Shown here: positions 44,163 through 63,056 of the stretch, in pieces
How positions within the stretch are numbered: the first letter of the stretch is position 1
How the letters are laid out: every line of letters starts with the position of its first letter
Assembly: GCF_015565955.1 (NCBI RefSeq)
Contig: NZ_CP064760.1
Span: 62,001 to 126,000, forward strand
Origin: Microbacterium schleiferi
GTDB taxonomy: Bacteria; Actinomycetota; Actinomycetes; Actinomycetales; Microbacteriaceae
DNA length: 64,000 nucleotides
Direction: 5' to 3'
The notes under the pieces: model-generated
Databases searched by the model: none
The model's input: the letters and a program-made list of their open reading frames with translations, nothing else
Told to the model about the DNA's origin: nothing
Program-made: the position numbers and the translations under genes

Positions 44163-45586
44163 TCATGACGCGGCGAGGGCGGGCGCGGTGACGGATGCCT
44201 CGGGTGACGCATCCGCGGCGCTCGCGGTCAGTCGGTGCGCGCGGTGGGTGGGGGCGAGGCGCGGCGAGCCCGAGAAGCGTTCGCGCAGGGTCGCGCCATC
44301 CGGGGTTCCCGCGCGTCCGCGCTCGATGAGGATCGGCAGCACGAGTTCGATGAACGCCTCGTAGGCGCCGGGTCCGCCGAAGGTCGGCTCGAGCATGATG
44401 CCGTCGATGCCGGATCCGTCGACGGTCGCGATGATCTCGTCGGCGACCTGCTCGGGCGAGCCGGTGATCTGGAAGCCGCGGATCGCCTTCGTGCGGAACT
44501 GGTCGAGCACGGCGCGCACCCGGATGTCGGGATCGGTCCGTGCGTACCGGTTGATGAGCGTCTGCCCGAGGTCGGTCTTGAGGTCCGCGACACGGGTGTC
44601 GGGGTCAATGCCGGTGAGGTCGATGCCCGTGATGCCGGCGAACATGACCGCCGCGTCATCCAGCCCCAACACGGCCTCGTACTCGGCGCGCAGGGCGCGG
44701 GCCTCGGTCTCGGTGGGCGCGACGGTGACCGTCATGCCGGTGATCACCTTGACGTCGTCGGGGTTCCGACCCTGCGCGACGGCCTGGGCGCGGATGTCGG
44801 CGACGTGGGCTGCGGCGGTCGCGATCGTCTGGCCCTGGATGAAGACGGCTTCGGCGTTGCGGGCGGCGTAGGCGCGGCCGCGGTCGGAGGTTCCGGCCTG
44901 AAACAGCACGGGTGTGCGCTGCGGCGTCGGGGGCACCGCGAAGATGCCGCGGGCCCGCTGGTAGGTGCCGTCGACCTCGACCCGGTGCAGCATGCTCGGA
45001 TCGGCATAGACGCCCGCGGTGCGGTCGCGGCGTTCGGCATCCTCGTCCCAGGAGTGCTCCCAGAACCGCAGGCACGTGTCGAGAAACTCGTCGGCCGCGT
45101 CATAGCGCTCGTCGTGCGAGAGCTTCTGCGTGACCCCGAACAGCTCGTCGGTGGTGGCCTGCGAGCTGCCGGTCACGACGTTCCAGCCGATGCGGCCGGC
45201 GGTGAACCGGTCGAGGGTCGCGAACCGGCGCGCCGTGCCGTAGGGCTTTTCGACCGTCGTCGGCGAGGTGACGACGAACCCGAGCTGGCTGGTCGCGTGG
45301 GCGAGGGCCGGGATCGCGAGCATCGGGTCAAGCGCGGGGAACTGGATGCCGTGGGCGGCGACCTCGTCGGGCATCCGTCCCTCGAGGGTGGCGTAGCCGT
45401 AGGTGTCGGCGAAGAAGAGGAAGTCGAAGCCCGCGGCATCCAGCGTGCGAGCGAGCCCCAGCCAGTAGTCGAGGTTGTCCCAGTCGTCGCCGCGGCCGCG
45501 CGGGTCGGTCCAGGTCGGCATCCCGTTGTTGGGTTCATCATTTCGAACGCACCCAAGAGGATGCGCTTCGGGGACCTGTCGCTCAC
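44163..45586 (-). CDS. LLM-class flavin-dependent monooxygenase, NtaA/SnaA/DszA-like (frameshifted near start)
   Basis: About 474 residues. The main body carries the NtaA/SnaA pattern: FDFLFFADTYGYATLEGR, TSPTTVEKPYGTARRFATLD, GWNVVTGSSQATTDEL and PVLFQAGTSDRGRAYAARNAEAVF. The N-terminus VSDRSPKRILLGAFEMMNPTTG is in another frame and joins MPTWTDPRGRG if one base is added to the CCC at 45522-45524 (plus strand). The GTG at 45586 then overlaps the aldehyde dehydrogenase stop (GTGA). These FMNH2-dependent enzymes cleave C-N or C-S bonds or hydroxylate. Substrate unknown. Confidence 0.83.
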
Positions 45587-47085
45587 AGCACCATCACCAC
45601 CGTCTTCGTCTCTAGATAGTTCTCGAGGCCCTGCGGGCCGTTTTCGTAGCCCCAGCCCGACTCCTTGTGGCCGCCCTTGGGCAGTTCGGGGCCAAGGAAG
45701 GAGTGGCAGTTGACCCACACGGTGCCGGCTTCGAGCTGCGCGGCGATGCGGTGTCCGTTGCTGAGGCCTTCGGTCCAGACGCTCGCGGCCAGCCCGTAGG
45801 GCGAGTCGTTGGCCCACCCGACCACCTCATCGAGGTCGTCGAAGGGGGTCACCACCGCGACGGGGCCGAAGATCTCTTCGCGCATGAGGCGCATCTCGGG
45901 GGTGACGTCGGTGAGGACGGTCGGCGTATAGAAGGTGTCGCCGGAGCGCGTGCCGCCGCTGACGACGCGAACTCCCTCGGAACGTCCTTCGTCGATGAAC
46001 CCGGCGACGCGGTCGGTTTGCGCTTTGCTGACGAGCGGCCCGAGGTCGGTGCCGGCGGCCAGGCCGTGGCCCATCGCGAGGCCCTCTCCCGTAGCGGCCA
46101 TGCCGGCGATGACCTCTTCGTAGACATCCCGGTGCGCGTAGATGCGGGCGCTCGCGACGCACACCTGGCCGCCGTTGTCGAAGATGCCGCGCGAGACGCC
46201 TTCGATCGCGGAGGGCAGGTCGGCGTCGGGCATGATGATCGACGGTGACTTGCCTCCCAGTTCGAGGGTGAGACGGGCAAGGCGCGTGCCAGCGGATTGC
46301 ACGAGGCGCTTGCCGACGGCGGTCGAGCCGGTGAAGGCGATCTTGTCGACATCCGGATGCTCCGCCAGGGCCTGCCCGGCATCGTGGCCGTAGCCGGTCA
46401 CGATGTTCACGACGCCGTCGGGCAGGCCCGCTTCTTGCAGGAGCTGGCCGAGGTAGATCGCGGTGAGGGGCGTGTTCTCGGCGGGTTTGAGCACGATCGT
46501 GCAGCCGGCCGCGAGGGCGGGGGCGAGCTTCATGGCCGTCATGATGAGCGGCGAGTTCCAGGGCACGATCGCCCCGACGACGCCGACTGGTTCGCGGCGC
46601 GTGTACGCGAAGACCTCTTTGCCGGGTGGGGTGCGCGAGAGTGACGTGGGGATGGTGTCGCCGAGGATCTTGGTGGGCCAGCCTGCGTAGTAGCGGAACT
46701 GGTTGATGGCCGCGGGCACCTCGCCGAACCGCGAGGTGCGCAGCGACTTGCCCTGATCGAGCGTCTCGAGTTGCGCGAGGTCGTCGAGGTGTTCGGTCAT
46801 GAGATCGGCGATGCGCCACAGCAGCGCGCCGCGCTCGGCGGGCCGCATCTCACGCCAGGCCGAGGAGCGCAGCGCGCCCTTCGCGGCCCGGACGGCCTTG
46901 TCGACATCGGGAGCGGTGGCGCGGGCGACCTCGGCGATGGCGGTGCCGGTGGCCGGGTCGATCGTGGTGAACGTCGAGCCGTCGGATGCCGGGAGCCAGT
47001 CGCCGTCGATCAGCAGATCCGTGCGCCCCGACGCCAGAAACGCCTGCACGCGCGGACGCAGGGTGAAGTCGTCAGTCTTCGTCAC
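45583..47085 (-). CDS. NAD(P)-dependent aldehyde dehydrogenase
   Basis: 500 residues from a GTG at 47085. The catalytic glutamate lies in LTLELGGKSPSIIMPD and the cysteine in FDNGGQVCVASARIYA. The cofactor-binding FTGSTAVGKRLVQSAG and C-terminal PKGGHKESGWGYENG also fit the family. It oxidises an aldehyde to the acid, possibly the product of the decarboxylase or GMC enzyme nearby. It is the first gene of a two-gene operon with the flavin monooxygenase, behind the TGATAGC palindrome. Confidence 0.92.
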   Translation of the reverse strand: MTKTDDFTLRPRVQAFLASGRTDLLIDGDWLPASDGSTFTTIDPATGTAIAEVARATAPDVDKAVRAAKGALRSSAWREMRPAERGALLWRIADLMTEHLDDLAQLETLDQGKSLRTSRFGEVPAAINQFRYYAGWPTKILGDTIPTSLSRTPPGKEVFAYTRREPVGVVGAIVPWNSPLIMTAMKLAPALAAGCTIVLKPAENTPLTAIYLGQLLQEAGLPDGVVNIVTGYGHDAGQALAEHPDVDKIAFTGSTAVGKRLVQSAGTRLARLTLELGGKSPSIIMPDADLPSAIEGVSRGIFDNGGQVCVASARIYAHRDVYEEVIAGMAATGEGLAMGHGLAAGTDLGPLVSKAQTDRVAGFIDEGRSEGVRVVSGGTRSGDTFYTPTVLTDVTPEMRLMREEIFGPVAVVTPFDDLDEVVGWANDSPYGLAASVWTEGLSNGHRIAAQLEAGTVWVNCHSFLGPELPKGGHKESGWGYENGPQGLENYLETKTVVMVL

Positions 47086-47128: not shown

Positions 47129-47288
47129 CGTTTCGAGGGTGTTTCGGGGCGCGTCGGGACCGAAGCGCAATGCTCCATTTGACCCCCGGCGCGCCTAGAC
47201 AGAGCTACGCGTTTGGTCCTCTGAACGTATTGGCTTCACGGCCCAGACCGAAGTCCCGCTGTTGCCGCTCGCACAGAAATCAGCACGA

Positions 47289-48925
47289 CTAAACCGGGAG
47301 CGTCCCCAGCGTGGCGCGTACGACAGCACGCAGATCATCGTCCTCAGCGATCCGGGCCCGAGCTGCGCGTTCGTACATGACAATTGACGCGAATTCCATG
47401 GCTCGCGCGGTGAGCACTCGCGCCGCGCTATCCCGGATAGAGACCGTCTTGACCATGCCCTCGTAGTCGCGTCTGGCAAGCATTTCCTGCAGATTGGAAA
47501 GGACCTTCGGGTACGGCGAGGGAATCGAGATCTCGATGTTCTCATCGCCGATCGCGCCAGGGATGTGGTCGGCCAGCTTGCGATTCACCTCATCCCTGGC
47601 CATCTTTCGAGCCAGCCGCTCAAGCGTCCCCGCTTCCCCCAGCGCCTTTAGGAAGGCGGCCTTCCCTCGACTAGCAAGCGCCTCAGAGGACTCCCCCAGC
47701 AGATCGGCCTGGGCCCGTGCGACTGACTGGACGACGGCAGGAAGGTAGTAGAGGCTCTCTATCTCGTTCACCGGCAATGAGAGAACGCCTCGCCTGTAAA
47801 GCGAATCCCGCTCTTCCGGGGATCTGCCATCCCCGTCAACCAGGCCCACGGCATGCACCCAGTGAAAGCCCTCGCTCGCCCTTATGCCAGTCACAGACTT
47901 GATTACGGCCTCGCATCCACCGACCGGTGAGCAAGTCCATTCTGGAAAGAGCAGACGGTAGAGCGAGAGATCGATGCTCGCCGCGTCTCCCTCTATGAAC
48001 ATGACCTCTCTTCGTCCACCCAAGAGGGCACGACGCGTCACCTCCGGTAGCGATTCTCCTCGGGGGACTTCGCGCAAATCCCAGGAGAAAACGGCGCTCT
48101 CCTTCCAAGTGCACCCAGAAAGGGAATACACGTCACCTCGCGCTGCGAGTGTCGCGGCAAGATCTAGATCGTGAGTGAGAACCACAAAGGCGCAATCAGG
48201 GCGTGCCGCAATGACCGCCTCCACAAGCCCTGCGGAGATTGAGCGATGCAGGTGGCGCTCGGGTTCATCGACGATGATCGTCATCCCCTCGCAGCAGTCA
48301 GCACCTCCGCAGCGAGTAGGAGAGCGCTCTTCTCGCCGTCCGACATCTGATAGATCGGATACTCGACACCTAGACCGGCATGACGGGCCGAGAAGGTTTG
48401 TACCGGCGTCACGCTCATAGCCACGTGCAGGCCAGCGTTTGCGAGTATTCGGTTCAGCCTTGGAAGCAAGCGCTCGCCGGTAACGCTGCGCACGACCTCA
48501 GTCGAGCTGCCGTCGTCATAGAGCTCAACCGCCTGCCGATTCTGATCGTTGATCATGCCGAGCAGGTCGAAGAGCGCGATGCTCGCACGTTGACCGTCCA
48601 AGTGGTCCAGGTATCTCGACTCATTCTGGCGGTCCCATATGTCCGCGTTCTTGCTCTGGGACTCACGTTGAGCCGGGCTTATCTCGGGCCCCGATGACGA
48701 GAACCAAATTCTGCGGTGGGCGATCAGCCGCTTGACCGTCCCCGCAGGTCGACGTGCCACCATCCAGGTTGCGAGCGCGGACTTGCCCGCCCCGTTGGCG
48801 CCAACAATGGTGACGGCGTGACCGGAGAACGCATCGATCCGAATCGTGCCACCGGGAGGAAGCGGAATCGCCCATTCGGCGAGCGGCGCTAGCTGAGGCT
48901 CGGATTCGGATTCGACTCTGCTCAT
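47289..48925 (-). CDS. AAA (ABC-type) ATPase-DUF4435 fusion, PARIS-like (frameshifted as sequenced)
   Basis: Read as one gene of 545 residues. Walker A GANGAGKS is at 42-49 and signature-like MSDGEKSALLLAAE near 194. After the frame break come Walker B TIIVDEPERHLH near 216 and the switch VVLTHD. A DUF4435/TOPRIM-like domain follows: EVMFIEGDAASIDLSLY (E312), VGLVDGDGR (D364, D366) and VNEIESLYYLP. One extra base at the CCCC run 48285-48288 joins signature and Walker B into one ATPase domain. ATPase plus DUF4435 is the AriA-AriB composition of PARIS anti-phage systems, here as a merged chain. GC and codon use are lower than in its neighbours. Confidence 0.75.
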
Positions 48926-49359
48926 GGAGGTGATGGTACGGGGTCAGCCGACATCGATGATGCCCGTTTGTTCGCCGGCGGCTTCAAAGCCGGGTGCCCA
49001 CGTTGTATCCGGTGCTCGAGAGTCGGGTCGTGAGGCGGACTGGTAGCCGCCCCACGACCCGGACCTCGGGAGCCCTCAGCGCGAGATCCACCCGGGGCGG
49101 GGTCCTCTGCATCCTGTATCGCCCGAGTCGTCATCACGGCCGGGGCCGACTATCGTGCCTCGACTTCAATCCATAGCTAGCGCATGGCGCCTCAGCCAAG
49201 GGCGCGAGATCCTGTCCCTTATCCGCGATCCTGAGGAGTCGTATACCGAGTGGTGCCAGCGTCGTTCGATATCACGCACTTCGTGTCGAGCAGAACGGCT
49301 GACAATGCAACTCGCGAGTTTCGCTTTCGAGCAGGATGACCAGTATGCACCTCGCGCTG
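48926..49359. other. 434-bp intergenic stretch without a confident gene
   Basis: It holds one strong hairpin (49024-49061) and otherwise unassigned, lower-GC sequence. A plus-strand open frame from 49155 encodes nothing recognisable and overlaps the antisense end of the DUF4041/T5orf172 gene. It may contain the promoter of the ATPase-DUF4435 gene and the terminator of the upstream operon, or gene remnants from island assembly. Confidence 0.5.
49024..49061 (-). terminator. Hairpin between the two putative defence units
   Basis: Arms CGGGTCGTGAGGCGG (49024-49038) and CCGCCCCACGACCCG (49047-49061) pair over 15 bp with one mismatch and an 8-nt loop. It could terminate transcription coming from the T5orf172 operon before it enters the PARIS-like gene. 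Confidence 0.5.
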
Positions 49360-50751
49360 TCAAGGAAGCACGGGGTGGTCCCCCCGCGCCCGCTTTCCAT
49401 CGGCCGGACCCAAGCGCAACTGTTGAGCGTGCTCGGGCCATTCTGCGAGCGACTGCATGAACTCGATGCCCTCAGCCTCAGCGTTGAACTCGAGGATGTC
49501 GCCGACTTTGTCGAGGAGGACCTCCCTCACCTCGGAGGGCGAGGCAAAGAAGAACTCCTTGCGCGCATTGATGCGGTTGAGTGCGCGGTCGCTGAAGTGC
49601 CGGTGCAGTTCGTTCTCAAGAGTCACGGCGTCTTCCGAGAAGAAGAGCGCGTGCACTTCGAACTTGAAGGGCACCGCTGCGCCGCTCAGTTCGGCGATGC
49701 GGTCTCTCGGTTCGAGCCGTCGGGTGAGGCCGATCTTGACGACGTCAGGTCCGAAGGCGCCAGGGTTGGAGATGACATACACGTAACCGGCCCGGATGTT
49801 CGCGGCGCGGAAGTCGTTGAACGCAATCGCGTCGTCGATCTCGAGCAGGCGGGCCTCAAGTTCAGCGTTCGTCTGACCTTGCCTCGCCAAAGCGGCGAGC
49901 GTGTTCACCAGGTGTGCTCGCTCCTTGTCGAGGAGTGCGCGTTCAGCGGCGAGTTCTTGTTCGACCTTCGCCTGCTCCCGTAGTTCGGCGCGGCGGTCCC
50001 GCTCGGCTTCACGCTCCTCCTGCTTCTTCATGAGCCAGTCCGACGTAAGCTCAAGCTCGCGCATCCGGAGCGAGTGATATTCCCGGCTGATCTCCATCTC
50101 CATGAGCGCCGCAAACCGAGCGATCGCGTCTCGTGAGGCCTCGACGCGGCGCTTCGCGCGCGCGAGATTCCCTGCGCGCAGCGCTCTCAGCGCGTTGTCG
50201 ACCTCGGCGTTGTAAGCCCTGAGCATCAGCTTCGACAGGTCGCCTGACAGCTTCTTGCCCTGCGCGAGCGAGTTGTTGAAGGTGAACAGCTCAGACTTCT
50301 CGATTGCCTTGCCTGACTTTATGAACTGCAGTGTCTCGGCAGAGATGTCGTCGAGGCGCTCCTTATACGCGGCGGCTGTGTCGAGGGGGTGGTTGTATCG
50401 GTAGATGCCGACATCTTGAAGAATGTCGAGATCGCTCTCCCTCGGTGAGGGTTCGGCAGCATTGACGCTAAGCCGTGCTCTGAGGGCCGCAACCTCGGTG
50501 TCGAGCGCTGCCAGGCGCTCGCGGTCGGATTGCTCGGAGCCGTCGGCATCGGGCTCCGGCTCATCAGAGACCGACAGATTGCTCCGCTCCGGGTCATTGG
50601 TGAGGGGTGGCGTCTCGGGTAGCCATAGCTGCCATCCCGCGGGAGGCTCCGGCCAGGACGGGTCGGGTTCCCATCCAGCGGGAGGAACCCACCCAGCTGG
50701 TGGCTTCGGCCAACCTGGAGGCGGATTGAACTCCACGTCAGGACACCTCAC
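49360..50751 (-). CDS. DUF4041-T5orf172 (GIY-YIG) domain protein
   Basis: 463 residues from a GTG at 50751. Residues 9-43 are Trp-rich PxGW repeats (PPGWPKPPAGWVPPAGW). About 110-320 is a DUF4041-like helical and coiled-coil region with very charged helices. Residues 322-410 are a T5orf172 domain of the GIY-YIG superfamily: GYVYVISNP, VVKIGLTRR, RIAELSGA and a conserved E in LENELHRHF. DUF4041/T5orf172 proteins occur in phages and genomic islands and are suspected nucleases. The start overlaps the stop of the preceding coiled-coil gene by 4 bp, so the two are coupled. Confidence 0.78.
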   Translation of the reverse strand: MRCPDVEFNPPPGWPKPPAGWVPPAGWEPDPSWPEPPAGWQLWLPETPPLTNDPERSNLSVSDEPEPDADGSEQSDRERLAALDTEVAALRARLSVNAAEPSPRESDLDILQDVGIYRYNHPLDTAAAYKERLDDISAETLQFIKSGKAIEKSELFTFNNSLAQGKKLSGDLSKLMLRAYNAEVDNALRALRAGNLARAKRRVEASRDAIARFAALMEMEISREYHSLRMRELELTSDWLMKKQEEREAERDRRAELREQAKVEQELAAERALLDKERAHLVNTLAALARQGQTNAELEARLLEIDDAIAFNDFRAANIRAGYVYVISNPGAFGPDVVKIGLTRRLEPRDRIAELSGAAVPFKFEVHALFFSEDAVTLENELHRHFSDRALNRINARKEFFFASPSEVREVLLDKVGDILEFNAEAEGIEFMQSLAEWPEHAQQLRLGPADGKRARGDHPVLP

Positions 50752-51998
50752 GCACGGCGCACGCCGGTCGTGGCGACGGGCACTAGCCCCATCGGGTTCT
50801 TTGATACGACTGCCCCCAAGTGTTCAAGGGTCGCAGCCGGAACGACGCCTGTGAGGTCCAGTTCGGCGAACCCGTCTCGAGAGACCGTCGCGACGACGAA
50901 CGGGACATAGGTCAGCTGGCCCGTCGCTGGACTTGTAGTCTCCGTGCCGACCTCGAGAGAGATGTTCCGGATGATCCCTCGCCTGTCGGCCTCGAATACC
51001 TCGTGCAGGGAGCGAAGAGCAATGTTGTGGACAATGGCCGCGTAGCGCTCCTTGAGTTCCTTCTGCGAAGCAGCCACCGGCGACACCTCATCCGATGCCT
51101 TGACGTATCGGTAGTGTTTCGCGGTCGGAACGATGTCGGGTCCTGGGATGCGGACGCGGAGGCCTAGTTCCGCCGTTGAGGGCTCGAAGCTGGCTTGATG
51201 CTCAACCTCGAACCACTCGGGGTAGACCGAATTCGCAAGAACGATGCCTACGTACTCCTGGACGGCCTCGACTGTGCCGTATGCGAGTCCGTTGATGAGT
51301 TCATCAAGCTCCGCGTTCTGCTCCGCGGCTTGCTTCTCGCGCTCCGCGCACTCTTCCTCGTACTGAGCCGTTGCCTCGGCAAGCTGTGCGAGACGGGTGC
51401 GTTCGGCTTCCTCGTAGGCTGCGGCTTGCGCGGCTCGTCGAGCCGGGAGGGTCTCTGTAGCGTCCTTCCACGCGTAGTAGTCAGTTGCGTACTGCTGCTC
51501 AGCTGCGGCCGCAGCTTCCGCGGCTTTCTGCTTACGGCCGAAGAGCCCCTTGACTGGCGTTGGCTCCTGCTTGACAGGCAGCGGTGGCTCGGGGATTGGC
51601 GCCGGTTCGCGGGTTGGCACCCGAAGCGCGACGTGAGGGAAGGGCGGATGCTCGGCCGTCGTCCGCAAAGTCTCAAGATCGACGAAGTCGTCGACAGCGA
51701 GCGTTGCACTCAGTAACTCGTCGAGTTCGGCGACGCGATGTGCGACCTCCTCCGTGAGGGCGGAGGCCTCGGCCTGCCGGGCGGCGACGTACGCAGCCGC
51801 TGCTTCCTTCTCGAGACGTTTCCTGTCAGCCTCTGACGCGCGCGCCGCGGCGACCTGCGCTCGTTCTGCGCTTCGTTGCGCCGCCTGCGCTCGCCTCAGA
51901 TCTGCTTCGTAGGCGCGCTGGGCCGCGCGTTGACGCTGCTCGGCCAGCCGCGCCTGGTGCTGAATCTCAGCGAAGAACCCCCGTCGTCTCGCCATCAA
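50748..51998 (-). CDS. Coiled-coil protein of the actinobacterial 'restriction system protein' family
   Basis: 416 residues. An N-terminal coiled coil rich in Ala/Arg/Glu/Gln (residues about 5-100, starting RRRGFFAEIQHQARLAEQ) and a second one (about 180-230) flank a Pro-rich linker. The C-terminal globular part contains VQEYVGIVLANSVYPEWF and RSLHEVFEADRRGIIRNISL. I recognise this as the family usually labelled restriction system protein in actinobacteria, but no catalytic motif is evident and the function is unknown. It is transcribed with and overlaps the T5orf172 gene. Confidence 0.7.
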   Translation of the reverse strand: MMARRRGFFAEIQHQARLAEQRQRAAQRAYEADLRRAQAAQRSAERAQVAAARASEADRKRLEKEAAAAYVAARQAEASALTEEVAHRVAELDELLSATLAVDDFVDLETLRTTAEHPPFPHVALRVPTREPAPIPEPPLPVKQEPTPVKGLFGRKQKAAEAAAAAEQQYATDYYAWKDATETLPARRAAQAAAYEEAERTRLAQLAEATAQYEEECAEREKQAAEQNAELDELINGLAYGTVEAVQEYVGIVLANSVYPEWFEVEHQASFEPSTAELGLRVRIPGPDIVPTAKHYRYVKASDEVSPVAASQKELKERYAAIVHNIALRSLHEVFEADRRGIIRNISLEVGTETTSPATGQLTYVPFVVATVSRDGFAELDLTGVVPAATLEHLGAVVSKNPMGLVPVATTGVRRA

Positions 51999-52215
51999 TG
52001 ACCTCCCCAGGTGTCGTCAGCTTCAGACTCCGCGCTTCAAGTACAGCTTCTACGTACGACTGAAGCCTGCGCAAGCAGTCTCGGTCTCTCACCACGACGC
52101 TCCAGCCCCCATTTTGGGGAACGTTTGCAGTGGTTGACGCCGGTGTGCGCGATACCGACCCGCGTCGCGCCCCGCGCGACCGCCGCGGTACCAGGTGAGA
52201 CCTAGGATCTGGACG

Positions 52216-52821
52216 ATGGCCATGAACGTTCAGGCGGCGTACGCGGACCGCGCCGATGAGTACATCGCGCTCCTCGGCTCGATGCAGAGCGTGCATCCTT
52301 CGGACGAGCACCTGGTTTCCGGGTGGTCGGCCCAGGTCGAAGGCCTCGTTCTCGATGCAGGCTGCGGTCCGGGCCACTGGGCGGGCCATCTCGCAGCGCA
52401 GGGCGTCCGCGTGCTTGGTATCGACCAGGTCGCAGCGTTCCTCGAACACGCTCGCGCCGCACACGAAGGCGTCTCCTTCCTTGAAGGCAGCATCGACGAG
52501 CTGCCTCTCGCAGATGGCAGTGTCGCCGGCGTGCTCGCCTGGTACTCGCTGATCCACCACGATCCCGACACCATTCACCGCGCACTCGATGAGTTCGCGC
52601 GCGTTCTCGAGCCTGGCGGAGCGCTCCTTATCGGATTCTTCGTCGGCGCCGACGTTGAGCCGTTCGACCACGCCGTTGTCCGTGCTTGGCATTGGTCACC
52701 CGATGCCTTGGGGGAACGCCTTGCCGCGGCGGGCTTCGAGGTCATCGAGACGCATACTCGGTCCGTCCCGCAGCCGCAGCCACGGCCGCACAGCACGATT
52801 CTTGCTCGTCGATCAATCTGA
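52216..52821 (+). CDS. Class I SAM-dependent methyltransferase
   Basis: 201 residues from ATG 52216 (MAMNVQAAYADRADEY); ATG 52222 and GTG 52195 are alternatives. The SAM-binding motif I is VLDAGCGPGHWAGHLA (about 45-60), motif II LGIDQVAAFLEHAR, and the motif near 105 AWYSLIHHDPDTI. A small-molecule methyltransferase; the substrate is not predictable. It stands alone at the island edge, divergent from the coiled-coil gene. The 217 bp between them shows no further gene. Confidence 0.85.
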   Translation: MAMNVQAAYADRADEYIALLGSMQSVHPSDEHLVSGWSAQVEGLVLDAGCGPGHWAGHLAAQGVRVLGIDQVAAFLEHARAAHEGVSFLEGSIDELPLADGSVAGVLAWYSLIHHDPDTIHRALDEFARVLEPGGALLIGFFVGADVEPFDHAVVRAWHWSPDALGERLAAAGFEVIETHTRSVPQPQPRPHSTILARRSI

Positions 52822-52929
52822 TCGTTGACACTCTCGACGCGGGTGGTAGACGCCCTGTCGGTGCTCGATGGTGACGGGTGGATGACTTCCGCCAGCCGTT
52901 TCGCACAAGCCGGTGCCTCGGCCTGCCTC

Positions 52930-53280
52930 CTAGCCGGAGGGCGAGATGAAGGTTCCTTGGTGGAATCGGATCTGGAGTTCTCCGTCGCGCATGGTCCAGA
53001 GAGAGGAATGGCGACTGTCGCCCTCTGGCCTCGAAATGACGTAGGTGACGAGGGTGAACCCAGGAGCCACCGACTGAAAGGCCCACTCACTCGTAGCCGG
53101 AGTGTCGCGGTCCGGTTCATGAGCCAGCGCGGCGATCGTCTCGTCGCGCGACCACAACCTCCCTGAGCGGCCGACTTCGACGAACTCTGGATGCAAGAGT
53201 TCACCCAAGAGTGCCGAGTCGCGCCGCACGGCTGATGTCAGCAGTTCGATTTCCGCACGCCGGATCTCATCAAGCTCCAT
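52930..53280 (-). CDS. DUF4440/NTF2-like small protein
   Basis: 116 residues from ATG 53280. The NTF2-like fold pattern is seen in IELLTSAVRRDSALLGELLHPEFVEVGRSG (first helices and strand) and the C-terminal SSLWTMRDGELQIRFHQGT. Such proteins bind small ligands or act as isomerase-like enzymes. It lies 44 bp downstream of the XRE-cupin gene on the same strand and is probably co-transcribed. Confidence 0.75.
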   Translation of the reverse strand: MELDEIRRAEIELLTSAVRRDSALLGELLHPEFVEVGRSGRLWSRDETIAALAHEPDRDTPATSEWAFQSVAPGFTLVTYVISRPEGDSRHSSLWTMRDGELQIRFHQGTFISPSG

Positions 53281-53324
53281 GCAGGAAGATTCGCACAAAG
53301 GAGCAAGGAACTGACGAGAGTCTC

Positions 53325-53928
53325 CTACGCCCCGCCGGTGTAGACGAACGCGACCCGGGCCGACCCATCCCGCGAAGGTGCCACCGGTTCCGCAGCGCAC
53401 CGGGATGCGCCACGGCATCCCCGGCGCCGAGTTCCCAGATCCCGAGTCCTTCGATCTCGAGCGCGATGGTGCCTTCGATGACGTAGTGGATGACTTCGCC
53501 ATCCGTCTCGAACCAGTCCCCGACCTGCTCGCCGGGGCGGATGACGTACTCCTGCAGCGAGGTCTCACCGGCGTGGATGACGCGGGTGTGGGCGGTGTCG
53601 GATGCCTCAGAGACCGGCACCCACGTGGCATCCGCTGCCCGCGAGACGTGGACGACCTCGGGTCGGGGTCAGTGGGGAGGAGCGCGGAGGGCGAGATGTC
53701 CAGGGCGTTCGCGATCCGGTACAGGGTCAGCAGCGACGGCATCGTCTGGCCCGACTCGATCTGGCTCAGAAACGGCTGGCTGATCTCGGCTGCCGACGCG
53801 AGCGCCCGCATCGACAGCTTCTTCTCGGTGCGCGCTTGCCGCACCTGTCGCCCGATGCCGACACCGATCTGCGTCTCATCGGATGCCGCACTCGGCCCGT
53901 CGGCGGACGTGCGAGCGGGAGTGGACAC
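53325..53928 (-). CDS. XRE family regulator with cupin domain (two frameshifts as sequenced)
   Basis: Three frames together encode one 201-residue XRE-cupin regulator: the HTH part (IGRQVRQARTEKKLSMRALA, SQPFLSQIESGQTMPSLLTL), the cupin (QEYVIRPGEQVGDWFETDGE, VIHYVIEGTIALEIEGLG) and the C-terminal strand ARVAFVYTGGA. One base must be added near 53660-53667 (GGG or GGGG, plus strand) and one at CCC 53369-53371. With both restored, the TAG at 53325 ends the protein correctly. The start used is the GTG at 53928, with GGAG just upstream. Confidence 0.75.
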
Positions 53929-53968
53929 GGCTCCAGGATACGGCGCGGCCCGCATCCGCCCCGCGTGG

Positions 53969-54496
53969 CTACTCGGAGGTGAGGGAGCCCACGAGATGGG
54001 CGATGCCATAGTCGTAGGCGTCGTCGAGATCACCGCCGAGGCGGAAGGCGCCGGCGAGCTCCATCGTGACGAACCCGGTAGCCCACGCCGTCAGCAGCCG
54101 CGCGGCGTCGAGTGCGTGCTCCGGGCCGACGGCCGCGGTGGTCGCGCGCAGGACGGGCGCGCTCGTGGCGGCGAGCTTCTCGGCATCCACCGTCGCGCTG
54201 AACAGCAGCCGAAAGGCCTCGGGACGCTCGTGGGCGAAACGGCGGAAGACGAGCAGCAGGTCTTCGATGCGCCCGGATGCCGCATCCAGCAGCCCCGTGA
54301 GGTCATCTGCGGCCGCACCGCCGACGAGCGCGAGCAGTGTTTCGCGATCCCGCACGCGCTTATAGAGCGAGGGCGCTTTGACGCCCACGTCCTGCGCGAC
54401 GGCCTGCATCGTGACCGCGGTAACACCTCCGGTTTCGAGCAGACGCGCTGCCGCGCTGACGATCTCGTCGAGCGATGTTCTCTCCGGTGTCGGCAT
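53969..54496 (-). CDS. TetR family transcriptional regulator
   Basis: 175 residues from ATG 54496, preceded by GGAGG. The HTH reads IVSAAARLLETGGVTAVTMQ, then VGVKAPSLYKRVRDRETLL. The C-terminal ligand domain resembles the TetR_C_33/WHG group (HERPEAFRLLFSA). It is divergent from the MBL-fold gene and probably controls both genes from the palindrome between them. Confidence 0.88.
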   Translation of the reverse strand: MPTPERTSLDEIVSAAARLLETGGVTAVTMQAVAQDVGVKAPSLYKRVRDRETLLALVGGAAADDLTGLLDAASGRIEDLLLVFRRFAHERPEAFRLLFSATVDAEKLAATSAPVLRATTAAVGPEHALDAARLLTAWATGFVTMELAGAFRLGGDLDDAYDYGIAHLVGSLTSE

Positions 54497-54508
54497 CGAA
54501 CCTCCAAG

Positions 54509-54545
54509 GCTACGAACATAAGCTATCATGGCTAACATTCGTAGC
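54509..54545. promoter_or_regulatory. TetR operator in the divergent promoter region
   Basis: GCTACGAA (54509-54516) and TTCGTAGC (54538-54545) form perfect 8-bp inverted arms. The AT-rich interior contains a second, smaller dyad AGCTATCATGGCTA. It lies between the tetR (54496) and MBL-fold (54567) starts. Confidence 0.6.
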
Positions 54546-54566
54546 TATCCTCGGGAAAGGCCCGCT

Positions 54567-55278
54567 GTGAAACTCTCCCCTCGCTCCACCGCATCGGCAA
54601 TGACATCGTCGCCGCCTACCTCATCGTCACCCCCGACGGCATCACGCTCATCGACGCTGGCCTTCCGGGCATGTACAGCGACCTCACGCGCGAGCTGGAT
54701 GCCCTCGGGCGCTCCCCCGACGACATCCGCGGCATCGTGCTCACCCACGGTGACAGCGACCACGTCGGGTTCGCCGAACGCCTGCGCGCCGAGCGCGGCA
54801 TCCCCGTGTTCGTCCACGCCGCCGACGCCGACCGCGCTCGCGGTGGCGACAAGCCCAAGACCCCGTGGGCCCGACCCGGATCGGCCCCCTGCTGCAGTTC
54901 GCCGCCTACGGCATCCGCAAAGGCATGCGGCCGCACTGGCTCACCGAGGTGCGCGAGATCGCCGACGGTGACACGCTCGACCTTCCCGGACGCCCGCACG
55001 TCATCGGAACGCCCGGCCACTCGCCGGGCAGCATCGCCGTCTTCTCGCCCGAGGTGCGCGCCGTCTTCGTGGGCGACGCGCTCACGACGCGTCACGTGTT
55101 GACCGGACGCACGGGGCCCGGACCGGCGCCGTTCACCGACGAGCCCGCTGAGGCCCTCGCCTCGCTCGACCGCATCGCAGAGCTGGATGTCGACTGGGTG
55201 CTGCCCGGACACGGCCCGGCGTTCCACGGCTCACCGGCCGCCGCCGTCGAGGCCGTGCGTGCGGCGGCGCGGGGCTAG
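54567..55278 (+). CDS. MBL-fold metallo-hydrolase (two frameshifts as sequenced)
   Basis: A metallo-beta-lactamase-fold protein of about 237 residues once two bases are restored, at CCCC 54577-54580 and CCCC 54861-54864. The rebuilt protein reads from a GTG with AAAGG upstream through DIVAAYLIVTPDGITLIDAG, GIVLTHGDSDHVGFAE, VIGTPGHSPGSIAVF and DWVLPGHGPAF. The metal motif is HGDSDH, an HxDxDH variant of the usual HxHxDH. Substrate unknown. It is divergent from tetR. Confidence 0.8.
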
Positions 55279-55323
55279 ATCCCCGTCAGCACGCTTCTGC
55301 CTGGAGTGGCCGTGCCCCGGACC

Positions 55324-55908
55324 TCACTCGCCCCGGGCGTTGTAGACGAGGGCGTCGCTGGAACCGTAGGCGCGGTAGACCTCCAGGGCCTCGTCGCGGC
55401 CGACATTCTGGGTCACCCGGATGCCGCGGGCCTCGAACTGCTCGGCCCAGTCAGCAACCATCGGGCCCTCGTCGAACCCCGAGAGCTCCTCGAGCTCGGG
55501 GCCGGATCCGGCGACGACCAGCGACCGCACGCCGCTCCACATCGTCGCGCCGTAGCACTGCACGCACGGGCGCCAGTTGACGACGAGCGAGAGGGTCGCG
55601 CCATCAGCGCCGAGGTCCCAGCGGCCGAGGCGCTGCTGCGCGAGGCCGAGCGCCATCACCTCGGCGTGCCCCGACGACTTTTCGGTCGAGAGCACGACGT
55701 TCACGCCCGCCGACACGAGCTCGCCGGTGGCGTCATCCACGACGATCGCCGCGAAAGGACCCCCGTTGCCCTCGCGCCAGTTGCGGTCGGCGAGGCGATT
55801 CACGAGCGCCATTCGCTCCTCGAGCGTGGGCAGCACAGCGGGCAGCTCATCTGCCTCGTCGACGAGCCAGGTGGGCAGGGTCATGGTGAAGGATGTCGCG
55901 ATCGGCAT
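55324..55908 (-). CDS. CMP/dCMP-type deaminase, probable guanine deaminase
   Basis: 194 residues. Zinc-binding HAEVMALG (His plus catalytic Glu) near residue 80 and RPCVQCYGATMWSG near 113 are the cytidine-deaminase-fold signature. GGPFAAIVVDDATGELVSAG is typical of GuaD-like enzymes. It begins 3 bp after the Mo-hydroxylase stop, so guanine to xanthine to urate would be encoded side by side. A tRNA adenosine or other nucleobase deaminase is less likely in this context. Confidence 0.82.
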   Translation of the reverse strand: MPIATSFTMTLPTWLVDEADELPAVLPTLEERMALVNRLADRNWREGNGGPFAAIVVDDATGELVSAGVNVVLSTEKSSGHAEVMALGLAQQRLGRWDLGADGATLSLVVNWRPCVQCYGATMWSGVRSLVVAGSGPELEELSGFDEGPMVADWAEQFEARGIRVTQNVGRDEALEVYRAYGSSDALVYNARGE

Positions 55909-55911
55909 GGC

Positions 55912-58676
<2,765 letters not shown>

Positions 58677-58680
<4 letters not shown>

Positions 58681-59513
58681 GCGTCGGCCTCCTTCGCGAG
58701 GTCGGCGACCAGGCGTTCGGCGAGCACGGCGGTGACCGCGCGTCGCCAATCCGCCTCTCCGAGCGCGTCGGTGAAGAAGTCGGTCGGGCTCGTGACATCC
58801 GTGCGCAGCTGCGCGGGGTCGGGAAGATCGTCGTACCGGAAGACATGGGGGACGAGGGTGGATGCCGTCACGGCGACCACGGTCGAACCGTCGCGTTCGC
58901 GGCGCCCGCTCACGACGATGCCAGAGCGGCCGAGCTCGGCCAGCGCCATCTTGTGCAGACTGACCCGGGCCCGCATCGCCTCGGTGGGCACCTCGAGTGC
59001 GCGCAGCACCTCGCCGGGCTGCAGCGTGTTGCGCGCCTGCCCCGTCACGAACTCTGCGACCGGCTGCCGGCGCTCACCGCCGTCCGGTGTCCAGATCACT
59101 GCTTCTCCGTCGAGCGCAGCCAGCAGGGACACCATCGCTGCCGCGGTAAACGACTGACAGACGTTGCCGCCGACCGTCGCGGTGTTCCATACCTTGAACG
59201 ACATGAGCAGGGCGTGCGCCGCATCCGGGATCGCCGCCGCCGCGCTCCAGCCGTCAGGAACCGGTGCATCGAGCTCTCCTCGAGACCACGCGACGAAGCG
59301 CGCGATCGTGCAGGTCGCGGCGATGCGAAGCCCGGCATCCGTGATCTCGACATCCGGCCAGCCCATCCGGGTGATGTCGACGAAACCGGTCACCTCGGGC
59401 TGCGGTTCGCTCATGAGCCACGTCCCGCCCGCGAGGATCCTCTCCCCCGGCGCGAGCGCGAGGTCTGCTCGGGTGTGGGCGAAGCGGTAGGAGGTGACAG
59501 ACGTGACGTCCAT
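58677..59513 (-). CDS. Mo-hydroxylase FAD-binding subunit
   Basis: 278 residues of the CoxM/XdhB family: LAPGERILAGGTWLMSE near residue 21 (FAD pyrophosphate loop), TVGGNVCQSF near 112, and the C-terminal CO_deh_flav_C part. It passes electrons from the 2Fe-2S clusters to NAD or O2. It is the first gene of the operon FAD subunit, fused Fe-S/Mo subunit, guanine-deaminase-like gene. Confidence 0.87.
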
Positions 59514-59549
59514 CGCGCCCTCCCTCCAGCAGCCGATGTTGACTCAGCG

Positions 59550-59588
59550 AACACTCCGAGTGAATCAGGCGAGGATTTCGCGAGTGTT
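59550..59588. promoter_or_regulatory. Dyad in the divergent promoter region of the Mo-hydroxylase operon
   Basis: AACACTC (59550-59556) and GAGTGTT (59582-59588) form inverted arms, extendable outward to GCGA and TCGC. It lies between the divergent FAD-subunit and DUF1304 starts. A regulator site is plausible, but the binding protein is unknown. Confidence 0.35.
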
Positions 59589-59632
59589 TCGCCGCGGCTC
59601 GTGCCAGGCTAAGCGAGTCGAGAGGAACCCGG

Positions 59633-60025
59633 ATGCTCATCACCGGAATGGTCTTCGCCGCGCTGGCGGGGCTGCTGCACGTCTACATCTTCTGGCTCGA
59701 ATCCCTCGCGTGGGGCAGCGCTCGCAGTCGGGCGACCTTCGGGGTGCGTAATGACGCCGAGGTCGAGATCACCCGCGCCTTCGCGTTCAACCAGGGCTTC
59801 TACAACCTGTTCCTGGCGATCGCCGCGATCCTCGGCATCGTGGTCGCCGCCGCCGGATCGGTGGCAGTCGGCGTGACCCTCATGCTCGTGGGAACCGGGT
59901 CGATGCTGGCCGCCGCCCTCGTCCTGTTCGTCACGTCGCCCGACAAGCGTCGCGCCGCGACCACGCAGGGGCTCTTCCCGCTGCTGGCCGTCATCAGCCT
60001 GGTGATCGCCCTGGTGATCGGCTGA
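59633..60025 (+). CDS. DUF1304 family membrane protein
   Basis: 130 residues with four predicted membrane helices and the DUF1304 pattern AALAGLLHVYIFWLESLAWG at the start and ITRAFAFNQGFYNLFLAIAA in the middle. Function unknown; the family is widespread and usually monocistronic. Confidence 0.85.
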   Translation: MLITGMVFAALAGLLHVYIFWLESLAWGSARSRATFGVRNDAEVEITRAFAFNQGFYNLFLAIAAILGIVVAAAGSVAVGVTLMLVGTGSMLAAALVLFVTSPDKRRAATTQGLFPLLAVISLVIALVIG

Positions 60026-60127
60026 CGCGGGACTAAAACGCGACACTCTCGACGTTGTGGTTCGGGTGCGCTCGTCCCGGGTGATCCTCGAAGAGCGCCG
60101 CACCCGACATCCGTACAAAGGAGAATC

Positions 60128-61105
60128 ATGCGCGCACTCGTGCAGCACCAGTTCGGCGACCCGGCAGAGGTCTTGGCAGTCGAGGAGGTCGACCTCCCCG
60201 AACCGGGACCCGGACAGGTGCGCCTGAAGGTCGTGCTCAGCCCCATCCACAACCACGACCTGTGGACCGTCAGCGGAAACTACGGCTTCAAGCCCGAGAT
60301 GCCCGCCCGCGCCGGTACCGAAGCGCTCGGCACCGTCGACGCGCTCGGTGAGGGCGTCGACGGACTGACCGTCGGTCAGCGCGTGGTCAGCGCCAGCACC
60401 TTCGGGGTCTGGGCCGAATACGTTGTCGTGCCCGCACGCGCCGTGGTTCCCGTGCCGGATGCCGTCACCGACGAGGCAGCCGCGCAGCTGGTCTCCATGC
60501 CGGTCAGCGCCATCAGCCTCCTCGAGTACCTCGACGTGAACGAGGGCGACTGGATCGTGCAGAACGCCGCCAATGGCGCGGTCGGCCGCATCGTCGCGCA
60601 GCTGGCCGCGGGCCGGGGCGTCCGCGTGCTGGGCCTCGTGCGTCGCGCCGCAGGCGTGGAGGAGTTGGCTGCTGTCGGCATCCACGATGTCGTCGCGACG
60701 GATGACGAGAACTGGCGTGAGCGCGCCGCCGAGATCACCGGCGGCGCATCCATCCGCGCCGGTGTTGACTCGGTCGGCGGTGCCGCCAGTGGTGAGGTCA
60801 CCTCGCTCCTGGGCGAGAACGGTCTGCTCGTCGTGTTCGGCGCGATGGCGTCGCCGACGATGGAGATCGCCTCGGGCGACGTCATCTTCCGTCAGCTGAC
60901 CATCCGCGGATTCTGGGGCAGCAAGGTCAGCGCCGCGATGGACCCCGCGCACCGCGTCGAGCTCATCGGCGAGATCGTCCAGCGCGTCGCGCAGGGAAAC
61001 CTCGACCTGCCGGTGTCGCAGATCTTCTCGCTGGAGCAGATCGCCGACGCCTCGCGCGCCAACTTCGAGCCCGGCCGCGTCGGCAAGGTCCTCCTGCGCC
61101 CGTAA
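60128..61105 (+). CDS. MDR-family zinc-free quinone oxidoreductase-like dehydrogenase
   Basis: 325 residues from ATG 60128 with AAAGGAG upstream. The N-terminal GroES-like domain (VDLPEPGPGQVRLKVVLSPI) and the NAD(P)-binding domain (IVQNAANGAVGRIVAQLAAG) are clear. The structural zinc cysteines of alcohol dehydrogenases are absent, which places it among quinone/enoyl reductases. It ends at a strong hairpin. Confidence 0.87.
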   Translation: MRALVQHQFGDPAEVLAVEEVDLPEPGPGQVRLKVVLSPIHNHDLWTVSGNYGFKPEMPARAGTEALGTVDALGEGVDGLTVGQRVVSASTFGVWAEYVVVPARAVVPVPDAVTDEAAAQLVSMPVSAISLLEYLDVNEGDWIVQNAANGAVGRIVAQLAAGRGVRVLGLVRRAAGVEELAAVGIHDVVATDDENWRERAAEITGGASIRAGVDSVGGAASGEVTSLLGENGLLVVFGAMASPTMEIASGDVIFRQLTIRGFWGSKVSAAMDPAHRVELIGEIVQRVAQGNLDLPVSQIFSLEQIADASRANFEPGRVGKVLLRP

Positions 61106-61116
61106 GGCTGGCTGAG

Positions 61117-61156
61117 GTGAGGCCGCCGCCGAGTTCGAACTCGACGGCGGCCTCAC
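61117..61156. terminator. Bidirectional terminator hairpin
   Basis: A 40-bp near-perfect palindrome: GTGAGGCCGCCGCCGAGTTC (61117-61136) against GAACTCGACGGCGGCCTCAC (61137-61156), with one mismatched pair. It lies between the convergent MDR and nucleoside phosphorylase genes. Part of it repeats sequence from the end of the phosphorylase gene. Confidence 0.7.
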
Positions 61157-61194
61157 GTCTGCATCCGGGGTGTCGTTTGGCTTTCGGGTCGGTG

Positions 61195-61959
61195 TCAGAG
61201 TTCGAGCTCGACGGCGGTCTCGAGCGCAGCCTCGATCGACCGCATCCAGCCCGCCTGCAGGTCTGCCTTCGTGCCCGAATAGAGCGATGCGCCATCGACG
61301 AGGTTGCTCGAGCACGCGCACACCATGCCCGCGCGCAGGCCGCGGAGGCGCGCGACGATGTAGAGCGCGGATGCCTCCATCTCGACGTTCAGGATCCCCA
61401 TTGTGTTCAGCTGTGCGATCCACTCCGGGGTCTCGGCGTAGAACGCGTCATCGCTCACGCTGATCCCGCGGAAGGAGTTGGTTCCCGCGGCGCCCGCAAT
61501 GCGCTCCGCGTGACGGGCCAGCGCGGTGGTGAGCTCCAGGTCGGGGACCGCGGGGAAACCCTTCGGAAGATAGGCATCCGTCGTCCCGTCGTTGCGGAAG
61601 CTGCCTTCACTCACGAGCAGGTCGCCCGGCGCAATGCCCGGCTGCAGGCCCGCCGAGCTGCCGACGCGGATGAACGAGGTCACGCCGACGCGGGCGAGCT
61701 CTTCGACCGCGATCGCGGTGGAGGGGCATCCCATACCGGTCGAGGTCGCCGTGATGTGGCGGCCCTTGTACCAGCCAGTCATGGTGCGGTGCTCGCGGTT
61801 GTGCGCGACTTCCTTCACGTCGGTGAGGAACTCGGCAACCAGCGGCACCCGGAACGGATCCCCGGGAAGCAACGCGACGCTGGAGACCTCGCCGGGCGCA
61901 ATCGCGATGTGATACTGGCGGGCGTCGAGCCCTGCTGCTGACTTGTCGACGACGGACAT
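61195..61959 (-). CDS. Nucleoside phosphorylase (uridine/purine, PNP-UDP family)
   Basis: 254 residues from ATG 61959, preceded by a strong AGGAGG. Landmarks are ALLPGDPFRVPLVAEFLTD (phosphate-site Gly/Asp/Arg), STGMGCPSTAIAVEEL, FIRVGSSAGLQPG and NVEMEASALYIVARL (substrate-binding Glu-Met-Glu). It splits a nucleoside with phosphate into base and ribose-1-phosphate. The GMGCPS motif leans to uridine phosphorylase; the purine-rich context would allow a purine nucleoside. Confidence 0.88.
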   Translation of the reverse strand: MSVVDKSAAGLDARQYHIAIAPGEVSSVALLPGDPFRVPLVAEFLTDVKEVAHNREHRTMTGWYKGRHITATSTGMGCPSTAIAVEELARVGVTSFIRVGSSAGLQPGIAPGDLLVSEGSFRNDGTTDAYLPKGFPAVPDLELTTALARHAERIAGAAGTNSFRGISVSDDAFYAETPEWIAQLNTMGILNVEMEASALYIVARLRGLRAGMVCACSSNLVDGASLYSGTKADLQAGWMRSIEAALETAVELEL

Positions 61960-62113
61960 AGGACCTCCTGGGTTCTGAGACGATCGGGTCGTCGCAGTCC
62001 CCGCCCTGGCGCCAGAGCCATGGTTGATAGGACGTGCTCTGCGAGCGAGCCTACCCACGCGCTGTTTCGCGGCTGTTTCTCGCTGCGGCAAGACCCCCGG
62101 TACGCTCGCCGGC

Positions 62114-62674
62114 ATGACGGCGTGCGGAATCGTGCTGGCCGCTGGTGCGGGAACCCGCTACGGACAGCCGAAGGTGTTCGCCCGCGATGCGGTCGGGACG
62201 CCGTGGCTCGTGTCGGTGGTCGCCGCGCTCCGGGACGGCGGGTGCGACGAGGTGCTGGTCGTCATCGGCGCCGAAGCAGTTCGGGCGCAACGCCTGGTTG
62301 CCACCGTCGACGGCGCCCGGCCCGTGGTCGCCACAGACTGGGACACCGGGCTGTCAGCATCCGTTCGCGCCGGGCTTGCGGCGGTAGCCGCGACCGATGC
62401 CGACCTCGCGGTGATCGCCCCGGTCGACGTTCCCGGGATGCCCGCGTCGGTCGTGGCGCGGGTTCTGCAGGCCGCGGTCGGGCCTGGCTCTCTCGCGCGG
62501 GCAACCTACGACGGCCGGCCCGGTCATCCGGTCGCCATCGGGCGCGAGCACTGGGCGCCGGTGTCGGCATCCGTTCACGGGGATTCGGGCGCGAACCGCT
62601 ACCTGTCGACGCACGCGGCCGTTGCGGTCGAGTGCGCCGACCTCTGGGACGGCGCGGATCTCGACACCCGATAG
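62114..62674 (+). CDS. MobA/MocA-like nucleotidyltransferase (probable molybdopterin cytidylyltransferase)
   Basis: 186 residues from ATG 62114. The nucleotide-binding start GIVLAAGAGTRYGQPKVFA, the acidic metal site LAVIAPVDVPGMPAS, and GRPGHPVAIGREHW fit the NTP_transf_3 family that makes MCD cofactor for xanthine-dehydrogenase-type enzymes. This agrees with the nearby Mo-hydroxylase and XdhC genes. A generic NTP transferase cannot be excluded. Confidence 0.8.
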   Translation: MTACGIVLAAGAGTRYGQPKVFARDAVGTPWLVSVVAALRDGGCDEVLVVIGAEAVRAQRLVATVDGARPVVATDWDTGLSASVRAGLAAVAATDADLAVIAPVDVPGMPASVVARVLQAAVGPGSLARATYDGRPGHPVAIGREHWAPVSASVHGDSGANRYLSTHAAVAVECADLWDGADLDTR

Positions 62675-62763
62675 CGGCGGCATCCGTCCCGATCGCAGGA
62701 TGGATTGGGGTGGCGGCCTGGTTTCGGGCGCCGGATTGGCGTTTGCTCCTGCGTTCGGTCCGG
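62673..62763. repeat. Direct repeat family 3, unit 1
   Basis: The first of three units of about 90 bp with period about 130 bp. Shared blocks are cgatcgcaggatggatt, ggtggcggcc and gtttgctcctgcgttcgg. It begins at the mocA stop. The whole gene-free gap 62675-63056 consists of these units and their spacers. Confidence 0.7.
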
Positions 62764-62803
62764 GATGGGCCGGGGACGGGGCAAGAAGAGTCCGCGATCG
62801 CGC

Positions 62804-62893
62804 AGTGGCGGCATCGTGCCGATCGCAGGATGGATTCGGGTGGCGGCCCGCCTGCGGGCGCCGGATTGGTGTTTGCTCCTGCGTTCGGGCCGC
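62804..62893. repeat. Direct repeat family 3, unit 2
   Basis: Second unit, 131 bp after unit 1, with the same blocks (cgatcgcaggatggatt, gggcgccggattgg, gtttgctcctgcgttcgg) and a short internal hairpin gcccgcctgcgggc. Confidence 0.7.
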
Positions 62894-62931
62894 GGCAGGC
62901 CGGGCAATGCCGGGAGGAAGCCGTGACCGGT

Positions 62932-63021
62932 AGCGGCCGGTGTTCGTGCCGATTGCAGGATGGATTGCGGTGGTGGCCTGGTTTCGCGGGTCGGACTGGT
63001 GTTTGCTCCTGCGTTCGGGCC
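62932..63021. repeat. Direct repeat family 3, unit 3
   Basis: Third unit, 128 bp after unit 2, somewhat diverged (cgattgcaggatggatt, ggtggtggcctggtttcg, gtttgctcctgcgttcgg). It ends about 35 bp before the stop of the hydroxyacid dehydrogenase. Confidence 0.7.
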
Positions 63022-63056
63022 GCCGGACCGGTCGGTGGTCGAATGGGACGGGCGAC

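Follow-up and report, generated by a model that had tools for sequence, protein, structure and literature searches.

We examined a gene which is split over two open reading frames (ORFs), ORF1 and ORF2, on the minus strand of a 64,000-nucleotide stretch of the Microbacterium schleiferi genome (contig NZ_CP064760.1, positions 62,001 to 126,000; hereafter, the window). An earlier note on this DNA had read the gene as a merged form of PARIS, an anti-phage system of an ATPase (AriA) and a DUF4435 effector (AriB), with ATPase motifs followed in one chain by a DUF4435/TOPRIM-like domain carrying E312, D364 and D366. The coordinates and motifs were verified (Table 1). ORF1 contains GANGAGKSAL at amino acids (aa) 42-51 and MSDGEKSALLLA at aa 194-205, while ORF2 contains TIIVDEPERHLH at aa 2-13, LTHDLDLA at aa 36-43 and the effector motifs FIEGD (E98) and VDGDGR (D150 and D152); adding the 214 aa of ORF1 converts these three residues to E312, D364 and D366 on the repaired frame. 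The glutamate and both aspartates were invariant across 29 aligned domains. The frame break falls inside the ATPase, with the signature on one side and Walker B on the other, and alignment to single-chain relatives revealed that zero residues had been lost at the junction. The relatives of the gene fit the description as one chain, but the sequenced window does not, since its ORF1 and ORF2 lie in different frames.

Table 1 Positions of the AriAB gene, its motifs and the surrounding features within the window.
Feature	Position	Strand	Details
ORF1: N-terminal part of the ABC ATPase, Walker A through signature	48281..48925	(-)	214 aa
ORF2: Walker B, H-switch and DUF4435/TOPRIM-like (AriB-like) domain	47289..48284	(-)	331 aa
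ATGA overlap	48281..48284	(-)	ORF1 stop / ORF2 start; frame shifts
Walker A GANGAGKS	48779..48802	(-)	G, K and S invariant across 10 aligned sequences
ABC signature MSDGEK	48329..48346	(-)	S, D, G and E invariant, 97 relatives
Walker B TIIVDEPE	48258..48281	(-)	DEPERH invariant, 97 relatives
H-switch LTHDLDLA	48156..48179	(-)	THDL invariant, 97 relatives
AriB-like domain, ORF2 aa 91-331	47292..48014	(-)	E98 at 47991-47993; D150 and D152 within 47829-47837
Insertion compared to relatives, approximate borders	47190..53331	(.)	DNA synteny break
Neighbour: PD-Lambda-1 homologue (DUF4041 + T5orf172/MUG113)	49360..50751	(-)	PDLC03976, E = 9e-90
Neighbour: PADLOC mREase_IV match	50748..51998	(-)	PDLC03663, E = 4.4e-39, model 19-380 of 544
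Left neighbour: aldehyde dehydrogenase gene	45583-47085
Right border: helix-turn-helix (HTH)-cupin regulator gene	near 53.3-53.96 kb

Profile searches placed both ORFs in the same family, with support well above chance level. The PADLOC model AriAB (PDLC02982), the top model on ORF2, matched ORF2 at E = 1.1e-47 (161 bits, model 241-529 of 570) and ORF1 at E = 1.3e-7 (model 45-237 of 570); the two matches, which were judged without a curated PADLOC cut-off, are collinear, end to end. The C-terminal half was recognised as DUF4435 by Pfam, as had been proposed, at 27.1 bits and thus barely over the cut-off of 27. On ORF1 alone, ABC_tran scored 27.3 bits (cut-off 25) and AAA_21 scored 25.3 bits, slightly short of its cut-off of 27. 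The family profile matched ORF1 over 5-210 (290 bits) and ORF2 over 213-542 (481.5 bits).

We also compared the predicted folds to known structures. The best fold match for the ORF2 effector was AriB, with VIA-align scores of 10.3 and 9.0 vs 6.5 for OLD. It should be noted that this match rests on VIA-align as a second look, because plain Foldseek on ORF2 gave nothing at E ≤ 0.001, its top match being an OLD nuclease at 0.015. Judging from where the alignments begin in two entries, E98 corresponds to AriB residue 26, if the first residues are gap-free. When a full-length relative was used, ABC domains occupied the 50 best Foldseek rows. By sequence, an AriB chain was not found in the PDB set, either with ORF2 alone or with a 29-row profile of the DUF4435 region (28 of the 80 loci described below plus the window). 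Compared to two-gene PARIS (AriA + AriB; PDB 8ux9, 8v46), the AriA-like ATPase fold is shared, as judged from an intact relative, and so is the AriB-like TOPRIM fold, in which the acidic E and DxD residues are kept. However, AriA and AriB are separate genes whereas the relatives of the window gene are one gene, the effector is only ~10% identical to AriB, and the ATPase half of the family is ~175 aa shorter than AriA upstream of the signature (profile 147-254 vs AriA 323-430; model 7-269 vs AriA 3-444).

These results bear on whether the gene could instead encode another ATPase-TOPRIM or ATPase-nuclease defence protein, such as OLD, Gabija GajA, Septu PtuA or ATPase-Toprim_I-B. OLD nucleases and GajA likewise have an ATPase followed by a TOPRIM-type domain in a single chain, and the ATPase of the gene is PtuA-like (Septu and retron PtuA). 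Septu, however, has an HNH PtuB partner, whereas the effector here is TOPRIM-like, in cis and of the DUF4435/AriB-like type. The runner-up PADLOC model on ORF2 reached 28.4 bits, far below the 161 bits of AriAB, AriB was ahead of OLD in the VIA-align fold comparison, and the two neighbouring genes which were tested (PD-Lambda-1 and mREase_IV-like) are unlike GajB or PtuB. We consider a protein outside PARIS to be improbable.

A search with the ORF2 protein, in which the 7,996 candidates with the most shared words were scored and those above 1.75x the query length were excluded, returned 703 matches at E ≤ 0.001. Among the matches listed, the closest relatives reached 59% identity across 99% of ORF2; of the 119 non-self relatives, 104 had lengths of 494-577 aa. 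The other 15 were shorter than 490 aa, and the 12 of these which were aligned all start within the ATPase, which may be a matter of start annotation, of contigs ending there or of broken copies. One ORF covers the whole family profile in 80/80 loci from named genomes (the best 80 of 150 confirmed loci), with no natural split of AriAB among them, so that these relatives have the single-gene form and not a two-gene split. The 539-aa AAA family ATPase of Agromyces cerinus (P0004, locus L004), a single-chain PARIS protein alike in domain order, length and motifs, is 56% identical to ORF2 and is encoded by one ORF, in contrast to the two frames of the window. An actinobacterial AriAB annotated as two genes (359 and 188 aa) was observed on Rothia terrae plasmid p1 (locus L139, 2362-4007), where the break lies at the TOPRIM DxD motif instead of within the ATPase. 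In a tree of 95 rows (the 80 loci, 14 database proteins and the window; midpoint rooting only), the window grouped with two loci from Agromyces, a member of the Microbacteriaceae, and three further relatives (support 100/98), and the supported 27-row clade containing the window has 12 of the 13 actinobacterial loci.

The gene therefore has the ABC-type ATPase motif set, the DUF4435/TOPRIM-like effector, the AriAB model match and the TOPRIM acidic residues of single-chain PARIS, and lacks the uninterrupted chain which its named-genome relatives possess. Judged on the sequence and fold features tested, and with the uninterrupted frame excepted, it is of the fused PARIS kind, an ordinary member of the known AriAB family and no new kind of system. 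The PARIS-like interpretation is thus supported by the AriAB profile, the motifs, the AriB-like fold and the close relatives. Because we take the split to be a defect or a mistake in a gene of this family, its assignment here reflects ancestry and does not imply that it works.

To place the frame break in context, we compared the window to two close relatives, G232 (purL 92%) and G235 (purL 91%), with which it is syntenic up to 47.15-47.19 kb. Isolated one-base frame-changing differences vs both other genomes numbered 8 in 41,780 bp for the window (6 of them at runs of at least 4 equal bases), 0 in 41,701 bp for G232 and 1 in 41,630 bp for G235. A looser pairwise count within likely genes gave 20 for the window vs G232, 15 for the window vs G235 and 3 for G232 vs G235. 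Of the 42 ORFs from G232, 6 fell in more than one frame in the window, as did 5 of the 37 from G235, compared to 3/46 and 2/45 in the G232-G235 controls; four genes were common to both sets, one of which aligns at only 70-74%, and 2 of the 6 G232 cases were also multi-frame in the control and so are uninformative on the window. In the reverse direction, 12/46 window ORFs were multi-frame in G232 and 8/42 in G235. A GMC oxidoreductase gene is likewise broken in the window, and 2 of 6 tested G235 ORFs to the right of the insertion are split there. At 8 changes per 41,780 bp, 0.31 frame changes would be expected in a 1.64-kb gene, with a probability of ~27% for at least one. The genome assembly consists of one contig with a completeness of 95.31%. 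Given the excess of one-base frame changes and split genes in the window compared to G232 and G235, an assembly error is the likeliest cause of the break, and we hold it to be probable. Genes observed to be split relative to the close relatives in window positions 1-47190 and 53300-64000, several of them metabolic, include an amidohydrolase (29.9-31.3 kb), one gene spanning 44.2-45.8 kb, the GMC oxidoreductase, the HTH-cupin regulator and others.

Alternatively, the frameshift may be real and AriAB recently pseudogenised in this strain. Immune genes which are toxic to their own cell tend to be lost, and the Rothia terrae plasmid copy is also split, at another place, so that broken natural copies may occur, unless that record is itself in error. 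However, the metabolic genes of the window show the same one-base differences, which an immune-specific cost cannot explain, and both AriAB fragments are otherwise open and conserved; we regard a true inactivating frameshift as unlikely. Far less probable still is a functional split, in which the ATGA overlap would couple translation of ORF1 and ORF2 (or programmed frameshifting would fuse them), with an ATP site formed from two chains. Such overlaps are a common arrangement for translational coupling, the ORF2 ATG sits exactly on this one, and no residue is missing at the junction. Nevertheless, the named-genome relatives are all single ORFs, the cut separates the signature from Walker B within one fold, a Shine-Dalgarno sequence with good spacing was not seen by eye ahead of ORF2, and the junction is at a short homopolymer, where the majority of the other frame changes in the assembly also lie. 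As separate fragments ORF1 and ORF2 are unlikely to work, because each would carry only part of the ATP site. Since many window genes are split across frames, findings which depend on frame need read support, and the main practical value of this analysis is the caution that frame splits in this assembly should have such support before they are read biologically.

The purL DNA is 81% identical to that of Agromyces cerinus, 79% to that of Leucobacter edaphi and 72-76% to that of three more distant genomes, which makes a host in the Microbacteriaceae likely; the large size of the genus is in line with Microbacterium. The distribution of the gene was examined within the genus, for which 295 genomes were available (one per species, drawn from a larger group). 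A search of a sample of 198 genomes of the genus, with the 7 best candidates per genome scored, found the AriAB matches of the window's own genome at 429 and 298.6 bits and no AriAB orthologue in the others, the next-best match scoring 37.5 bits. Although 156/198 genomes were tallied at E ≤ 0.001, the listed matches from other genomes are short (~60 to 220 residues) and sit mostly around the signature and Walker B, for which reason they were rejected as AriAB orthologues and regarded as generic ABC ATPases.

The gene lies within an insertion compared to the close relatives. DNA synteny stops at 47153 for G235 and at 47189 for G232 (near its contig end) and restarts at 53332 for G235. A second suspected defence locus had been proposed to adjoin the gene, and the neighbours there are a PD-Lambda-1 homologue and an mREase_IV-like gene; the latter overlaps the former by 4 bases and lacks the end of its model, and the two may form a two-gene unit. 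The guanine-cytosine (GC) content was 61.4-61.5% at 47-49 kb, the minimum of the window, and 61-63% over 47-50 kb, compared to 70% in the kilobase to the left (46-47 kb) and 70-72% further right (55-58 kb, with 72% at 55-56 kb); third-position GC was 0.71 and 0.68 in the AriAB ORFs vs 0.89 in the flanking aldehyde dehydrogenase gene. The lower GC reported previously was therefore borne out by measurement, but is weak as lone evidence, because low values recur elsewhere in the window (63.5% at 7-8 kb and 64-67% at 33-38 kb). The lone strong match in the window's own genome among the 198, together with the insertion compared to relatives, suggests horizontal gain, and AriAB probably entered a variable site of a Microbacteriaceae genome in this way.

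A full-length match to the aldehyde dehydrogenase gene was present in 28 other genomes of the genus, and we surveyed this site in 18 of them. The cupin gene or part of it was found near the aldehyde dehydrogenase gene in 17/18 genomes, in three by a short match only. By eye, L124, L127, L129 and apparently L126 have an amidohydrolase-like gene between the two border genes. In G235 (L116, 8965-18259) the site contains PD-Lambda-2_B-like, Multi_ubiq, ThiF (E1-like), AbiD/Abi_2 and AbiEi/AbiEii genes adjoining the aldehyde dehydrogenase gene, while 2 of the 8 site proteins tested had no match in either library. The differing gene content between the border genes indicates that the site takes up foreign genes, and these include defence genes in at least 2 genomes of the group. 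Two genomes weigh against a general defence hotspot: by eye, a 12-kb stretch at the site in G109 holds metabolic-looking genes and a transposase-like gene, and the close relative G274 has small unassigned genes there. In G235 it was also observed that an HTH-cupin part matching window positions 53333-53659 is duplicated around the AbiE genes (L136, 8428-8756 and 13031-13648), a possible trace of the way in which this site acquires segments.

PARIS, all forms together, was detected in 5.2% of genomes, and fusions in a single gene were already described with the system (PMC9122126). In the system worked out in E. coli, the AriA ATPase is a hexamer which keeps AriB, a TOPRIM ribonuclease (RNase), inactive until the anti-restriction protein Ocr is sensed, whereupon AriB is released, dimerises and cleaves tRNA-Lys (PMC11455837; PMC12409363). 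The literature searched on PARIS and AriAB held no account of actinobacterial single-chain PARIS; in the part of the Actinobacteria defence survey PMC10482375 which was available, supplements aside, the word 'Paris' occurs in the funding text only.

For the window gene, the analysis shows the order of the domains, the conservation of the motifs and folds resembling AriA and AriB. The intact form, of ~540 aa, would join an ABC/AriA-like ATPase head to an AriB-like TOPRIM RNase. The head may oligomerise and sense infection via an anti-restriction protein; the RNase would be kept inactive until this trigger and would then cleave tRNA, stopping translation and leading to abortive infection. We assign a probability of roughly 0.78 to the overall explanation that this is a single-chain PARIS family member, probably gained horizontally, with a tRNase mechanism and with its frame broken in the window. 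As a fused effector could not leave as a separate subunit, activation would have to differ in detail from that of two-gene PARIS. More tentatively, since this branch lacks ~175 aa of AriA and has its effector bound to its sensor, it is possible, if somewhat doubtful, that actinobacterial single-chain PARIS is a deeply separate branch which responds to other triggers, with tethered activation by rearrangement or subunit pairing and not by nuclease release.

The PARIS system gains here a further family member from the Microbacteriaceae, and its intact relatives are similar enough to be used for testing. The release model, as published, appears to leave the control of fused forms open, and if tethered activation is true, single-chain PARIS would reveal how cells keep a toxic tRNase in check without setting it free.
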